From contig NZ_PHUG01000001.1 in NCBI RefSeq assembly GCF_002813325.1, positions 3,720,001 through 3,784,000 on the forward strand: DNA of 64,000 bases. The letters run 5' to 3'. Below, one piece after another: positions 24,010-29,490 of this stretch. Under the pieces are notes generated by a model. The model did no database searches and was not told where the DNA came from. It saw only the letters and a list, made by a program, of their open reading frames with translations. Numbering within the stretch: the stretch's first letter is position 1; each line of letters opens with the position of its first letter. The stretch is from Janthinobacterium sp. 64. Its GTDB lineage: Bacteria > Pseudomonadota > Gammaproteobacteria > Burkholderiales > Burkholderiaceae_D. Made by a program: the position numbers and the translations under genes.

Positions 24010-25023
24010 TTAAGCGGCCACTTTCTCACTGTCCAGGTCATCCTTGCGCCGCGCATAGCGCTGCGCAATCACGGCGCAAATCATCAATTGAATCTGGTGA
24101 AACAGCATCAGCGGCAAAATCACCATGCCCAGCGAATGCGTGGCAAACAGCACCTTGGCCATCGGTACGCCGCTGGCCAGGCTTTTCTTCGAACCGCAAA
24201 AGACGATGGCGATCTCGTCTTCCTTGTTAAAACCCAGGCGGCGGCTGATGAACGTCATCAGGCCCAGGACCAGCGCCAGCAGCAAGATGCTGAACACGCC
24301 CAGCGCCACCAGCGTTTCCACCGAAATCGTGTGCCACAGGCCTTCGCTGACGGCTTCGCTGAAGGCCGTGTAGACCACCAGCAAGATTGAACCCTGGTCA
24401 ACGTATTTCAGGGTGGCTTTATGGCGGTCGACCCAGCGACCGATCCAGCGGCGCAGGAACTGGCCAGCCAGGAAGGGCAGCAGCAGCTGCATGACGATGG
24501 ACAGCACGGCATCGACCGACGACTTGCTTGCCCCGCCTTTCGCCACCAGCAAGCCGACCAGGATGGGGGCAAGAAAAATGCCGATGAAATTCGAGGCCGA
24601 GGCGCTGCAGATGGCGGCCGGCACATTGCCGCGCGCCATGGCCGTCAGCGCGATCGACGACTGCACGGTCGACGGCAGGGCGCACAGAAACAAGATGCCC
24701 ACGTACAACTCGGGTGTGAGAAAAGTCAGCGCCAGCGGCCGCAGGGCCAGGCCCAGCAAGGGAAACAAAATGAACGTGCTAGCCAGCACCAGCAAATGCA
24801 GGCGCCAATGCATGACGCCGGCCACCACGGCTTCGCGCGACAGCTTGGCGCCATGCAGGAAGAACAGGGCGCCGATGGCGACGGTGGTGACGTGGCCGAA
24901 GACCACGGCCGTCTGGCCCGTGCAGGGCAGGAAACTGGCCAGCGCCACGGTGACGAGCAGGGCGATGGTGAAATTATCGGGTTTCAGATTGCGCAACAGG
25001 GCAGCGGGAGAAAAAGAAGACAT
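24010..25023 (-). CDS. Bile acid:sodium symporter family transporter (YfeH/SLC10A7-like)
   Basis: A 337-residue protein from the ATG at 25023, with about ten membrane segments. GALFFLHGAKLSREAV, FLCALPSTVQSSIALTAMARGN and FCGSKKSLASGVPMAK are signature blocks of the SBF-like YfeH branch of the bile-acid symporter family. It probably exchanges an organic anion with sodium or protons; the substrate cannot be told from sequence. It precedes modA on the same strand, 109 bp away, but the ModE operator in between suggests separate transcription. Confidence 0.85.
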   Translation of the reverse strand: MSSFSPAALLRNLKPDNFTIALLVTVALASFLPCTGQTAVVFGHVTTVAIGALFFLHGAKLSREAVVAGVMHWRLHLLVLASTFILFPLLGLALRPLALTFLTPELYVGILFLCALPSTVQSSIALTAMARGNVPAAICSASASNFIGIFLAPILVGLLVAKGGASKSSVDAVLSIVMQLLLPFLAGQFLRRWIGRWVDRHKATLKYVDQGSILLVVYTAFSEAVSEGLWHTISVETLVALGVFSILLLALVLGLMTFISRRLGFNKEDEIAIVFCGSKKSLASGVPMAKVLFATHSLGMVILPLMLFHQIQLMICAVIAQRYARRKDDLDSEKVAA

Positions 25024-25167
25024 GCGGTAGCCTGGTAGCGGCCCAGCCTTGCAACACTGCGCCATGGATGACAAAAAGCGCCGGAAACGGCGCCAGTGCT
25101 GGCTATTCTAACCCTATTGCCGAGCTACCTGCCTGTCAGCTGGCGTGGCTTGTGGACACAATGGCAC

Positions 25168-25195
25168 AAAAAAATGCCCTGTCCGCAGACAGGGC
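25168..25195 (-). terminator. Intrinsic terminator of the BON-domain gene
   Basis: On the minus strand the stem GCCCTGTC/GACAGGGC (8 bp, loop TGCG) at 25195-25176 is followed by A and then a run of seven T (25174-25168). It lies about 42 bp after the stop of the gene at 25238-25600. Confidence 0.88.
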
Positions 25196-25237
25196 AACCC
25201 GGAGTAAAGTACAGCGCGAGGCGTTACCGCGAGGGGA

Positions 25238-25600
25238 TTAACCGGCGGCTTTGACTTTCAGCTCGTTCTTGATTTCTTTCACGCCGCTCACGGAAGCGAC
25301 GATCTGCACGACGCGGTCACCCGCTTCGGCACTCGGCACGTCGCCCGACAGGACGACCACACCTTGCTGGGTTGCTACCTTGACTGGCAGGGCAGCGGCT
25401 TGCGCATCGGCGCTCAGGGCGGCCTTGGCCGAGGAAGTGATGGTTTCATCAGGGACGGCAGCGGCAGCGTTGGCGGCCACGACGGTGTCAGCAGGAGCTT
25501 GTGCTTTTGGGGCGGAGTCAGCTGCATGCGAAGCGGTGATCGAGGCGCCCGACAGAACGATAGCGGCAACCAGGGTATTGAACAGTTTCGATGTTTGCAT
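25238..25600 (-). CDS. Periplasmic BON-domain protein, probable GlrR/sigma-54 target
   Basis: A 120-residue protein. The ATG at 25600 has a GAGG ribosome site. A signal peptide (LVAAIVLSGASITASHAA) is followed by an Ala-rich linker and one BON domain (about residues 55-118) with the typical VKVATQQGVVVLSGDVPS and VKEIKNELKV strands. BON proteins of the OsmY type are periplasmic and linked to envelope or osmotic stress. The upstream region has a perfect sigma-54 promoter, an IHF site and two GlrR-type boxes, and glrR itself ends at 25878. It is monocistronic, with its own terminator. The biochemical role of the protein is unknown. Confidence 0.9.
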   Translation of the reverse strand: MQTSKLFNTLVAAIVLSGASITASHAADSAPKAQAPADTVVAANAAAAVPDETITSSAKAALSADAQAAALPVKVATQQGVVVLSGDVPSAEAGDRVVQIVASVSGVKEIKNELKVKAAG

Positions 25601-25687
25601 GGTAGTTCCTCTCAATGAAGTTAAAAGCTTCTTACTTGGCTATAGCAATAAACAGCAACACTATGAAGCGTCACATCTACCCATACA

Positions 25688-25702
25688 GCAAGCACCGTGC
25701 CA
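25688..25702 (-). promoter_or_regulatory. Sigma-54 (-24/-12) promoter of the BON gene
   Basis: On the minus strand TGGCACG-GTGC-TTGC, followed by T, matches the RpoN consensus TGGCACG-N4-TTGCW exactly. It predicts a start site near 25676 and a leader of about 76 nt before the ATG at 25600. Confidence 0.9.
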
Positions 25703-25721
25703 GCTTTTAATTTCCCTTCAA

Positions 25722-25734
25722 AATCAATAACTTA
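25722..25734. promoter_or_regulatory. IHF consensus site
   Basis: AATCAATAACTTA fits WATCAA-N4-TTR with no mismatch. It lies between the sigma-54 promoter and the activator boxes, centred near -52, where DNA bending would bring GlrR to the polymerase. Confidence 0.65.
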
Positions 25735-25795
25735 CATTCGACATCGATTTTTCCAGCGCGTTTCCGCCGGATCTGGCCCGAAAATCGGGGCTTTT

Positions 25796-25813
25796 TGTCG
25801 CCAGACAGCGACA
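25796..25813. promoter_or_regulatory. GlrR (QseF) box 1
   Basis: TGTC-GCCAGACAGC-GACA is an exact TGTC-N10-GACA site, the motif bound by GlrR in enterobacteria. It is centred about 128 bp upstream of the predicted start site of the BON gene. Confidence 0.8.
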
Positions 25814-25872
25814 AGGTCTCGCAACAATATCAATGTTTTAAGATAAGTCGTTGATTATGAATACTTTATTTT

Positions 25873-25890
25873 TGTCGCTATTCAGCGACA
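25873..25890. promoter_or_regulatory. GlrR (QseF) box 2, overlapping the glrR stop
   Basis: TGTC-GCTATTCAGC-GACA is a second exact TGTC-N10-GACA site, centred about 205 bp upstream of the predicted BON start site. It contains the glrR stop codon (25878-25880), so the last glrR codons are part of the enhancer. Confidence 0.8.
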
Positions 25891-27245
25891 GGGTCGCCAT
25901 CGCCGCGGAACAGGGCCGGCGTCAGCTCGTATTTCTGTAATAAACGGTAGAACTCCGTGCGGTTGCGGTCGGCCAGGCGGGCCGCGTCGGCCACGTTGCC
26001 ATCCGTCAGGCGCAGCAATTGAATCAGGTAGTCGCGCTCGAAGCGCTGCTTGGCTTCGTTGTAGCTGAGCGCTTCCAGGGACGGCACGCGCAGGGCCCGC
26101 TGCACCAGCGACAAGGGCACCAGCAGCGCCGTCGCCAGCGCGCACACTTGCTCAACGACATTGACCAGCTGGCGCACATTGCCGGGCCATGGCGCGCTGA
26201 CCAAGGCCGTGAGGGCATCGGGCGCGAAACCATTCAAGGGTTTTTGATACTTGGCCGCCAGCTTCTGCAGGAAATGGTTCGCCAGCAGGGAGATATCTTC
26301 GCGGCGCTCGGCCAGCGGCGGCAAGGTCAATGTCACCACGTTGAGGCGGTAATACAGGTCTTCGCGAAATTGCCCCTCGGTCATCGCCACGTCGAGGTCG
26401 CGGTGCGTGGCGGACAGCAAGCGCACGTCCACCGGCCGCGTCTGGTCCGCGCCGACGGGCCGCACGGCCCGCTCCTGCAGCACGCGCAGCAGTTTCACCT
26501 GCAGCGGCAGCGGCATGTCGCCGATCTCGTCCAAAAACAGGGTGCCGCCATCGGCCGCCTGGAACAAGCCTTCGCGGTTGCCGACGGCGCCCGTAAACGA
26601 GCCCTTCACGTGGCCGAACAATTCCGATTCCAGCAGTTGCTCGGGAATGGCGCCGCAGTTGACGGCGATGAACGGCGCCTTGGCGCGGCGGCTGGCGTTG
26701 TGCAGCGCGCGCGCCAGCAACTCCTTGCCCGTGCCACTGGGGCCACGGATCAAAATGCTGGCATCGGACCCGGCCACCAGCTTGGCCTCGGCCAGCAGCT
26801 CGGCCATCTGTGAACTACGGCTGATCAGCTCGGCACGCCAGCTTTCGTCACCGGACGCTGGCGCCGGCATGACGGTGGACAAGTTAATCGCATATGCCAC
26901 TTTTTCCATGAGCAGCTTGCCGTCGAACGGTTTCGTCAGATACGCAAACGCGCCGCGCGCCGTCGCCTCGACGGCGTCGGGAATGGTGCCGTGGGCTGTG
27001 AGCAAGATGACGGGCAGGGCCGCATGCTGGCGGCGGATTTCATCGAACAGGGCCAGGCCGTCGCGGCCCGGCAATTGCACGTCGGTAATGACCAGGGCCG
27101 GCAATTCCACGGCCAGGCGCGCCAGCGCCGCTTCCGCGCTGCCCACGGCCGTCACGCGATAATTGCCCGCCTTCAGGCGGATGGTCAGCAGGCGCAGCAG
27201 GTCGGGGTCGTCGTCGACCAACAAGATGTGGGCGTGCTCGCTCAT
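25878..27245 (-). CDS. glrR: Sigma-54-dependent response regulator GlrR/QseF type
   Basis: A 455-residue NtrC-family activator. The receiver domain has acidic residues D11-D13 and phosphoacceptor Asp55 (LVITDVQLPG). The AAA+ domain has Walker A GPSGTGKE, the GSFTGA loop that contacts sigma-54 and Walker B GGTLFLDEIGD. The C-terminal helix-turn-helix is NVADAARLADRNRTEFYRLL. The operon order kinase-lipoprotein-regulator is that of glrK-qseG-glrR. Its start overlaps the qseG-like stop as ATGA. Two exact GlrR-type boxes, an IHF site and a sigma-54 promoter lie just downstream, before the BON gene. Confidence 0.93.
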   Translation of the reverse strand: MSEHAHILLVDDDPDLLRLLTIRLKAGNYRVTAVGSAEAALARLAVELPALVITDVQLPGRDGLALFDEIRRQHAALPVILLTAHGTIPDAVEATARGAFAYLTKPFDGKLLMEKVAYAINLSTVMPAPASGDESWRAELISRSSQMAELLAEAKLVAGSDASILIRGPSGTGKELLARALHNASRRAKAPFIAVNCGAIPEQLLESELFGHVKGSFTGAVGNREGLFQAADGGTLFLDEIGDMPLPLQVKLLRVLQERAVRPVGADQTRPVDVRLLSATHRDLDVAMTEGQFREDLYYRLNVVTLTLPPLAERREDISLLANHFLQKLAAKYQKPLNGFAPDALTALVSAPWPGNVRQLVNVVEQVCALATALLVPLSLVQRALRVPSLEALSYNEAKQRFERDYLIQLLRLTDGNVADAARLADRNRTEFYRLLQKYELTPALFRGDGDPVAE

Positions 27246-27784
27246 TTCGGCGCTCCCGCGGCAGGGCGCACGGACAGGCTGCGCTCGATGTTTTTCAGTG
27301 CTTCGAGTTTTTCATTGAGCAAGTCGTTGCGGCGCTGGGCGTCGCGCAGCTGCCCGTTGAGCTTGTCGATGCTCTCGTCCTGGCGGCGCAGTTCCGCATA
27401 CTGGCTGCCCAGCAATTGCGCCAGCGGCGCCAGCAGTTGCGCGTCCTTGCCCGTGGCCGTGGCCAGCGGTTCCAGCAACGCTTGCGCGCGGGCCAGGTCG
27501 CCGGGGCCGCGCAAGGCCGCTTGCAGCATGGCGCGGCGTAGCGTGTTGTGCGGCGCATGGTCGGCCTTCGCCAGGTCCAGCTGCGCTTTCACCAGGTCCG
27601 ACGGCGTCATCAGGCGCAAGGCGCTTTGATACGCGAGCAGTTCGGTCAGCTGGGGGTCCATCACCACCACCACGCGCGGCGGCGTTTGCACCAGCACGGG
27701 CGTCTGGGTGGAAGGCTTGGCGGCGCAAGCGCCCAAGAGCAATGCACAGGCGGCCATGCCGGCCAGGGAAATTCTCGTCATCAT
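27242..27784 (-). CDS. qseG: QseG-like lipoprotein of the GlrKR system
   Basis: A 180-residue lipoprotein with lipobox LLGAC (mature Cys near residue 20). The mature part is helical and charged, with a C-terminal coiled coil (ELRRQDESIDKLNGQLRDAQ). It lies between kinase and regulator and overlaps both as ATGA (27781-27784 and 27242-27245). In enterobacteria QseG is an outer-membrane lipoprotein that binds and activates the QseE/GlrK kinase. Sequence conservation of this family is low, so the name relies on size, lipobox and position. Confidence 0.75.
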   Translation of the reverse strand: MMTRISLAGMAACALLLGACAAKPSTQTPVLVQTPPRVVVVMDPQLTELLAYQSALRLMTPSDLVKAQLDLAKADHAPHNTLRRAMLQAALRGPGDLARAQALLEPLATATGKDAQLLAPLAQLLGSQYAELRRQDESIDKLNGQLRDAQRRNDLLNEKLEALKNIERSLSVRPAAGAPK

Positions 27785-29193
27785 AAGGGCAGTTCTATCC
27801 GAAAATGCGCGCCGGCGGGGCGCGGTAAAAGAGTGACGCTGCCATCGTGGGCGGCGATATATTCGCGCACGATGGACAGGCCGATGCCATTGCCGTTGCG
27901 CGCGCCGGCCGCCTGGCGCACTCCCTGGTAAAACGGTTCAAAAATACGCGCGGCATCCTCGGGCGCCACGCCGGCGCCCTCGTCGATGCAGTCGATGCGC
28001 ACGCGGCGGCCTTCGATGGACAAGCTAAAGCGCACGGTGCCGCCTTCCGGGCTGAAGCGCACGGCATTCGACAGCAGATTCGCCAGGGCGGTGGCCAGCT
28101 TGTCGCGGTCGGCTTGCACGATCAGGGATACGCCCTGCACCTCGACCGTCAAACGGCGCGCCAGCCATTGCAGGCGCTGCCCGGCCACCACATCTTGCAG
28201 CAAGACGAGCAAATCGACCTTGCTGTGCGCCAGATGCTGGGCGTCAAAAGCGGCGGTATTGTAGCGCAGCAAGTCCTCGATTTGCGTTTGCAGGGACGCC
28301 GTGTTTTGCTGCAGGATGCCGGCGATTTCGCGCTGGCTATCGCTGAGCTTGCCCGCCACCTCATCTTCCAGCAAGGCCACGCCTTCGCGCAGGGCCGCCA
28401 GCGGGGTTTTCAGCTCATGCGAAATGTGGCGCAGAAAACGTTCCTTGTCGGCATCAAGATCGGCCAGACGCTGGCGCAGCCAGTCGAGCTGCTGGCCCAG
28501 GCGGCGCGTGTCGGCCGGGCCGCCGACGACGATGGGCTGGTCGTAGCGCTTGTCGCCGAGGCGCCCGATGGCCGTCTCGATGCGGCGCAACGGGCGCGAC
28601 AATAGAAAACCGAAGCAGGTGGCCAGCACGGCTGCCAGCAGCACGGCGCCGCCGACCAGCATGCCCAGCACGCGGCGCTGGCGCTCCAGCTCGGCCAGCA
28701 GGGCATCGTTGCGGCTGCCGATTTCCGTCTTGCTGTCGCGCGCCAGGCGGTCATTGATCTGCGCCATGCGGGCAAACGCGCGGTACACGACGGCATGGCC
28801 ATCGCGCTTGCGGCGCTTGCCGGCTTGTAAAACTTCCCAGGCCGATTGCGCCTGCGCAGTCCATTCGTCGGCCAGCTGCGGAGCGAACTCGGGCGTGGCC
28901 CGGTTCAGCACTTGCAGCGCCGCCGTCGCTTCGTCGCGGGCCGCCGCGTAGCGTTCGCGGAACACGGGATCATCGAGCACGAGGAACTGGCGCGCGCTGC
29001 GCTCCATGGCCAGGGTGCGCTCGGACAGGCGCTGCGACTGTTCCGTCAGGGCAATCGCCTGCGCGGCCGTCTCGCGCCCCAGCCGCGCCAAGTGTTCCAG
29101 GGTCAGCAAGGCTTGCACGGAGGTGGCCGTCAAAATGCCCGTCGTCAAAATGAAGGCGGCAAATAACAGTTGGCGAAAGGAAAGTCGGGACAA
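27781..29193 (-). CDS. glrK: Sensor histidine kinase GlrK/QseE type
   Basis: About 470 residues from a TTG at 29193 with a GAAGG ribosome site 8 bp upstream; no suitable ATG exists nearby and the next upstream in-frame starts give implausible extensions. It begins LSRLSFRQLLFAAFIL, a typical GlrK start with a first membrane helix. A periplasmic helical bundle (about residues 35-170), a second helix and HAMP follow. The phosphoacceptor block is RHISHELKTPLAALREG. The ATPase motifs are NLLSNAVRFSPEGG and GNGIGLSIVREY. It would phosphorylate GlrR under envelope stress or an unknown cue. Confidence 0.88.
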   Translation of the reverse strand: MSRLSFRQLLFAAFILTTGILTATSVQALLTLEHLARLGRETAAQAIALTEQSQRLSERTLAMERSARQFLVLDDPVFRERYAAARDEATAALQVLNRATPEFAPQLADEWTAQAQSAWEVLQAGKRRKRDGHAVVYRAFARMAQINDRLARDSKTEIGSRNDALLAELERQRRVLGMLVGGAVLLAAVLATCFGFLLSRPLRRIETAIGRLGDKRYDQPIVVGGPADTRRLGQQLDWLRQRLADLDADKERFLRHISHELKTPLAALREGVALLEDEVAGKLSDSQREIAGILQQNTASLQTQIEDLLRYNTAAFDAQHLAHSKVDLLVLLQDVVAGQRLQWLARRLTVEVQGVSLIVQADRDKLATALANLLSNAVRFSPEGGTVRFSLSIEGRRVRIDCIDEGAGVAPEDAARIFEPFYQGVRQAAGARNGNGIGLSIVREYIAAHDGSVTLLPRPAGAHFRIELPL

Positions 29194-29490
29194 GATAGGC
29201 GCCTTCGGTTCAGTCTGGGTGACAAAAGGCGCATGGTACGCTAAGCGTTCATTCGCAGACGCCACCCACCCGCGAATGATCAATTTTGCAACACTGTCGC
29301 TTTTCCGGCCGCCAGCAAGGCCCCGTCGGCGGCGCGCGAATACTCCTAGTACAATAGGGAAAAACTTCACGCAGGCATCAAAGTGACCCTCCGCCTTGGC
29401 GACAGGCCCTGGCATTGCGCCACTTTGCCCCCACATGTGATGCAGCCCCACCGACTATCCGTTTCACCTACTGAAGAGATCCCATACCGC

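Follow-up and report, generated by a model that had tools for sequence, protein, structure and literature searches.

A predicted GlrR-dependent sigma-54 promoter before a BON-domain gene in Janthinobacterium, and related enhancer layouts across the Burkholderiales

The window, by which we mean the whole 64,000-nucleotide stretch analyzed from Janthinobacterium sp. 64 (contig NZ_PHUG01000001.1, positions 3,720,001 to 3,784,000), carries on its minus strand genes for a sensor kinase (glrK), a QseG-like putative lipoprotein, a response regulator (glrR) and a small BON-domain protein (Table 1). The regulator matched PF00072, PF00158 and PF02954 (HTH_8, 22.2 against a cut-off of 22), and GSFTGA was present in its aligned sequence. 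It shared 56% identity and the HTH stretch RNRTEFY with E. coli GlrR, and the corresponding motif [RK]NRT[ED]F[YH] was found in 122 of the 130 GlrRs that we compared. The GlrR model was the best of the NCBIfam models (588.5 bits, next 409.7), with a score under its equivalog cut-off of 763. The kinase was 32% identical to E. coli GlrK. The small protein encoded between them had no Pfam match, and its similarity to E. coli QseG was weak (27% identity, E 7e-6 in a single BLASTP comparison). The operon order of kinase, QseG-like lipoprotein and regulator is present, with the QseG match being the weak one, and RpoN is encoded in the genome.

Table 1. Genes and predicted control elements of the glrK-glrR-BON region (positions are those of the window)
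Feature	Position	Strand	Description
glrK	27781..29226	-	HAMP-HisKA-HATPase sensor kinase; ORF open to 29451, start provisional
QseG-like putative lipoprotein	27242..27784	-	Position between kinase and regulator; weak BLASTP match
glrR	25878..27245	-	REC-AAA(sigma-54)-HTH response regulator
Distal GlrR box (predicted)	25873-25890		TGTCGCTGAATAGCGACA (gene strand); exact TGTC-N10-GACA; spans glrR stop codon
IHF site 1 (predicted), between boxes	25844-25856		Exact consensus; 34 bp after distal box start
Extra IHF-consensus match, between boxes	25828-25840		Exact; less conserved (6/13 columns)
Proximal GlrR box (predicted)	25796-25813		TGTCGCTGTCTGGCGACA (gene strand); exact TGTC-N10-GACA
IHF site 2 (predicted)	25722-25734	reads on +	AATCAATAACTTA; exact; 32 bp upstream of promoter element
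Sigma-54 promoter (-24/-12; predicted)	25688-25702	-	TGGCACGGTGCTTGC; sole exact match in window
Predicted +1	25676	-	Placed 12 bases below the -12 GC
BON gene	25238..25600	-	120-aa precursor; one BON domain (PF04972, 1.3e-16)
Intrinsic-terminator-like stem-loop and T-run	25175..25196	-	3' of BON gene; consensus match alone

A sequence-only reading of this region had placed two exact TGTC-N10-GACA boxes, an IHF site and a perfect sigma-54 promoter, all facing the BON gene, between it and glrR. Both boxes and the promoter were recovered exactly as claimed. The length of the intergenic stretch (277 bp), the order of the elements and their direction were also right; placing everything between the genes needs a small correction because the distal box runs into glrR, whose last codons and stop make up 13 bp of it (glrR ends at 25878). 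The single IHF site that had been proposed is an exact match, and the account of IHF was incomplete, as it left unlisted the two further exact matches between the boxes. All three matches to the IHF consensus WATCAANNNNTTR in the 64 kb lie inside the glrR-BON control region. Read along the minus strand, the order is distal box, two IHF matches, proximal box, the IHF match at 25734-25722, sigma-54 element, predicted +1 and BON ATG. The starts of the two boxes are separated by 77 bp, and that of the proximal one is 111 bp from the promoter element; both boxes are instances of a longer palindrome, TGTCGC-N6-GCGACA.

The N-terminus of the BON protein was judged by eye to be signal-peptide-like and to have no lipobox Cys. 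The leader, from the predicted +1 to the ATG at 25600, would be 76 nt, and the 14 bases preceding the ATG, with GAGAGG, were invariant in nine same-genus sequences. Between promoter and ribosome site (25615-25687), 52 of 73 columns were kept in these nine sequences, two of which are set apart by a 10-bp indel. The genome had five BON matches, of which two seem to share an ORF, and the window BON gene is one of the five.

Within the window, TGTC-N10-GACA occurred three times against 0.59 expected and the IHF consensus three times against 0.50, and each of these counts was reached in 2 of 100 shuffles. Across the 6.3 Mb genome, TGTC-N10-GACA alone had 101 sites versus 81 for the reversed pattern. 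Four exact matches to TGTCGC-N6-GCGACA were listed, two of which are the window boxes and two of which lie inside a sigma-70-family ORF and an aspartate/ornithine carbamoyltransferase ORF; with up to one mismatch allowed there were 96 sites. Two places in the genome combined a box with a promoter-like element 70-100 bp further on, the BON gene and the inside of an MFS ORF, which leaves the predicted BON promoter as the sole promoter of this design outside genes by these criteria, in a scan that would miss degenerate sites.

The sequence-only reading had called for a conservation check and named absence of the boxes from close relatives as grounds for rejecting it; the two-box-plus-promoter pattern was present in all eight same-genus genomes sampled, its own included. 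The window GlrR had a 97% match in Janthinobacterium, in keeping with an origin of the window in that genus. In an alignment of nine sequences (the eight same-genus genomes and Janthinobacterium sp. TND4EL3), invariant columns numbered 17 of 18 in the distal box, 14 of 18 in the proximal box and 12 of 15 in the promoter, and 22 columns of the 61-bp spacer were kept, with box arms and promoter preserved. Within the family, the pattern was found in 19 of 145 genomes (none for a reversed control pattern), and 17 of the 19 matches were flanked by a GlrR orthologue and a BON gene. Of 97 family genomes, 14 had a GlrR orthologue at E <= 1e-120, and 13 of these 14 had a BON match downstream.

In the other two of the 19 genomes (G011, locus L019, and G091, locus L002) the pattern follows a different sigma-54 activator, with no BON match. 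There, from position 1613 in L019 and 1501 in L002, a TGTCAC-type box pair and a perfect sigma-54 element precede an ORF. The activator was 38% identical to the window GlrR, and its best model was a PEP-CTERM response regulator, scoring below the cut-off. These loci appear to have the same design of an activator followed by its own target, and were excluded from our counts as non-orthologous.

To extend the comparison to the order, we searched 250 genomes for GlrR with the protein as the only guide; it was present in 104. The order set held 110 of 111 loci, from 103 genomes, 53 genera and 37 families, with the locus of G255 left out as its glrR was cut off. An exact box at -40 to +320 of the glrR stop was found in 47 of the 110 loci (mean of 0.2 in sixty dinucleotide-preserving shuffled sets), two exact boxes in 25 (shuffle mean 0) and an exact promoter within +430 of the stop in 34 (shuffle mean 0.12). 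A box and a promoter in register, that is, each with at most one mismatch and 80-170 bp apart, were present in 56 of 110 loci, against a shuffle mean of 0.02. Based on these counts, the predicted design is kept in about half of the sampled GlrR loci of the order. Neither an exact box nor a box and promoter in register was found in 42 loci, which included every locus of families f6 (4), f15 (3), f24 (1), f37 (7) and f46 (3) and six of the seven f38 loci. By eye, several of these 42 loci adjoin dUTPase-like or CcmA-like ORFs.

A wider set of 130 loci included 17 selected for carrying boxes; its exact-box count (65/130) is biased for that reason, and 47/110 is the unbiased figure. Control regions of this set gave 0/130 (coding region) and 1/127 (distal), and 26 of its 65 exact-box loci had no IHF match even with a relaxed pattern. 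In the class at large the strict pattern occurred in nine of 274 genomes, seven of them outside the order. In four of these seven the next ORF encodes a small EF-hand protein (three over the Pfam cut-off, one below). Behind the promoter in other orders of the class, we saw a small protein with EF-hands only. In Dechloromonas and Propionivibrio (L152, L157) a box pair with a spacing of 65-66 was found some 3.5-3.7 kb upstream from the glrR stop; this place is presumably in front of the kinase gene and would correspond to that of glmY in enterobacteria.

The geometry of the elements was compared in 45 loci with a box pair and a promoter, a set that includes box-selected loci and in which the window's genus was counted once and other genera were not thinned. 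Box starts were 65-68 bp apart in 41 loci, 77-78 bp in three and 63 bp in one, and the spacing of 77 in the window's genus is therefore about one helical turn more than usual. Over the 45 loci there were 17 relaxed IHF matches within 50 bp before the promoter, 13 of them at exactly 32 bp, and 23 between the boxes, of which 16 were at exactly 34 bp. The distances from box to promoter fell into groups of 60, 70-72, 81-84, 91-94, 101-106, 111-113 and 135-136 bp. The Rayleigh vector for 39 family-distance values, in which families are non-independent draws and which make the p value no more than a guide, peaked at 10.5 bp with an R of 0.71 (0.12 at 8 bp and 0.28 at 12 bp); these values also include box-selected loci, for which the selection pattern limited the range of distances and not their phase. 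A working enhancer requires phasing of this kind, on one face of the helix.

The gene behind glrR differed between lineages. Downstream of glrR in the 110 order loci we found a BON/EF-hand gene in 29, a CxxCG/glycine-zipper gene in 22, MdoG/MdoH in nine, a small membrane protein in five, and another gene or none in 45; an exact box, or a box and promoter in register, was present in 26, 14, 9, 5 and 14 of these, respectively. The counts include two labels corrected by hand (L020 to BON, L042 to MdoH). MdoG was checked in both of its cases, MdoH in three of its seven with NCBIfam, and the rest were assigned by BLAST clustering. Over all loci, Pfam BON was found in 45 of the 48 members of the BON/EF-hand cluster and EF-hand in 13 of 48, while two glycine-zipper models matched nine and seven of the 23 members of the CxxCG/glycine-zipper cluster. 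This latter cluster of small membrane proteins, with an invariant CxxCG, is the second commonest cargo, with 23 loci (L055, L058-L061, L071, L090, L096 and others). At L062, L072, L083, L086, L106, L115 and L121, EF-hand-like and BON-like parts seem to be fused in a secreted-looking protein behind the promoter.

On a tree of the 130 GlrRs, the five labels (with "none" as one) needed 18 changes compared to 65.7 in shuffles, on a quick tree with 35 of 127 inner branches open and several long rows. The output labels are clustered on the GlrR tree, yet they have repeatedly changed, and seven label changes remain when only loci with an exact box, or a box and promoter in register, and a gene of a named class are counted.

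The same scan was applied to known targets of E. coli K-12. At glmY it recovered three exact boxes, with spacings of 33 and 63, and a sigma-54 element with one mismatch; one IHF match lay between boxes two and three and another 31 bp before that element. The proximal box of the window and the E. coli glmY box TGTCGCTTTCTGGCGACA are equal in 17 of 18 letters. At E. coli rpoE every box that it picked up had two mismatches, and no sigma-54 element was matched; rpoE is a known target, and the scan therefore misses real targets. The QseF/GlrR site consensus is given in a passage of PMC8745638 as TGTCN10GACA, and in a passage of PMC6075780 as TGTN12ACA, with three sites and IHF.

Based on these findings, we consider, with a probability of roughly 0.9, that the glrR-BON intergenic stretch drives the BON gene from a sigma-54 promoter under GlrR control. 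Most likely the predicted GlrR/IHF/sigma-54 target is genuine and belongs to a branch of the regulon outside enterobacteria. That such a target would form a branch other than glmY and rpoE had been suggested from the window, and the suggestion gained support from the pattern in 8/8 genomes of the genus and the 56/110 order loci in register; its attribution to GlrR is further backed by the identity with E. coli GlrR, the shared RNRTEFY and the fit of the boxes to the consensus quoted from PMC8745638.

In the mechanism that we propose, GlrK, helped by the QseG-like lipoprotein, would phosphorylate GlrR, which would then bind the two boxes. IHF would bend the DNA at two places, one between the boxes and one ahead of the promoter, and this bending would let GlrR touch the sigma-54 polymerase at 25688-25702. 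A single-gene mRNA of roughly 510 nt would start at 25676, and the small soluble BON protein would be exported to the periplasm and act on the envelope, perhaps in a chaperone-like or lipid/peptidoglycan-associated way like other BON proteins. The QseG-QseE activation step is known from enterobacteria (PMC12691602), and we infer activation of that type here, carried over from gene order and weak similarity.

Alternative explanations had to be weighed. An exported BON protein could, as the sequence-only reading also suggested, be a feedback partner, one that acts on GlrK or on the QseG-like lipoprotein and damps or sustains signaling, a role with which the genetic linkage is consistent. The system is said in PMC12691602 to lack a clear negative component. 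However, the gene in this slot differs between lineages, with the 18 label changes over 130 GlrRs described above, and such changing cargo disfavors a dedicated feedback partner; we regard this role as unlikely.

Less probable is that the control elements are there for an sRNA or leader RNA, as at E. coli glmY, with translation of the BON ORF being incidental. The best known GlrR target is an sRNA, GlmY (passage in PMC6075780), and 25615-25687 is fairly conserved in the genus. Against this, an sRNA was sought in 25000-26000 with Rfam and no match was found there even at E 1, while the E. coli control locus matched RF00128 (GlmY); furthermore, a conserved, signal-peptide-like BON ORF with a ribosome site lies behind the promoter, and protein ORFs lie behind the box and promoter in other lineages too.

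We think it more improbable still that another sigma-54 activator uses the boxes and that their adjacency to glrR is accidental. The box pair of L002 and L019 is similar (TGTCAC..GTGACA) and, with its promoter, follows a different activator, and therefore related designs exist for other activators. In contrast, the window box fits the published GlrR consensus and the E. coli glmY boxes, and among the 83 family genomes that had no GlrR orthologue at E <= 1e-120 the pattern was found only in G011 and G091, where it adjoins that other activator and no BON match. Finally, the chance that the control elements are fortuitous matches is next to negligible, since, common as TGTC-N10-GACA alone is in this genome, the shuffled order loci gave far lower counts than those observed, the coding-region and distal controls were almost empty, the spacings recur and the distances are phased.

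A wider proposal, which we offer tentatively and would put at somewhat short of even odds, is that outside enterobacteria the usual output of GlrR is an envelope protein gene, directly driven by sigma-54 and located beside the regulator's own operon. The enhancer would be fixed and helically phased, and the cargo would be swapped between lineages (BON, EF-hand/BON, EF-hand, glycine-zipper/CxxCG, MdoG/MdoH, small membrane proteins), with the GlmY sRNA as one derived replacement. GlrK-QseG-GlrR would then tune the capacity of the periplasm and outer membrane in general and would not be an amino-sugar regulator.

In the literature covered (titles, abstract starts and passages, with subscription titles thinly represented), the GlrK/GlrR (QseE/QseF) targets on record are glmY and rpoE, from enterobacteria only, and no link of GlrR/QseF/YfhA to BON/OsmY proteins or to Burkholderiales targets appeared among the matches listed, which does not prove its absence; one article that contains both GlrR and BON domain, PMC1084347, is by its title on type III secretion of E. 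coli. New in the present proposal are an envelope protein as a GlrR-type output and the position of the promoter downstream of glrR. The predicted glmY-like enhancer layout before envelope-type genes across the order hints at a role of the regulator beyond enterobacteria, which the layout opens to direct tests, in many cases at a single promoter next to glrR. Phased as it is, and with its changing cargo, the layout may also be viewed as a natural series in which the geometry of a sigma-54 enhancer is kept while the output gene is replaced.

The protein and its predicted promoter can be compared to known systems. The BON domain and the signal-peptide-like N-terminus are shared with OsmY and other BON-domain periplasmic proteins. 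OsmY has two BON domains and RpoS-type control, and other BON proteins are chaperone-like or lipid/peptidoglycan-associated; the window protein differs from OsmY in its single BON domain and in its predicted sigma-54 control. It scored 52.3 with the OsmY NCBIfam equivalog, under the cut-off of 174, and had one BON stretch only. The operon resembles E. coli glrK-qseG-glrR in having a kinase, a small lipoprotein-like gene and a regulator in the same order, and differs from the enterobacterial systems in that its predicted output is not GlmY. A figure legend in PMC12691602 gives purL, glnB and "non-conserved genes" as neighbors of the glr operon, whereas the slot downstream of glrR appears to be conserved in design here.

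The closest likeness is to the glmY promoter of E. coli and other enterobacteria, with its TGTC-N10-GACA boxes, IHF sites between boxes and before the sigma-54 element, and location adjoining the glrK-qseG-glrR operon (passages in PMC6075780 and PMC8745638). However, glmY is an sRNA gene upstream of glrK with three boxes, whereas the window has two boxes, 77 bp apart, downstream of glrR and, as output, a predicted periplasmic protein. The layout at the BON gene thus appears close to the E. coli glmY enhancer, with an envelope protein probably replacing the sRNA, as in many relatives within the order.
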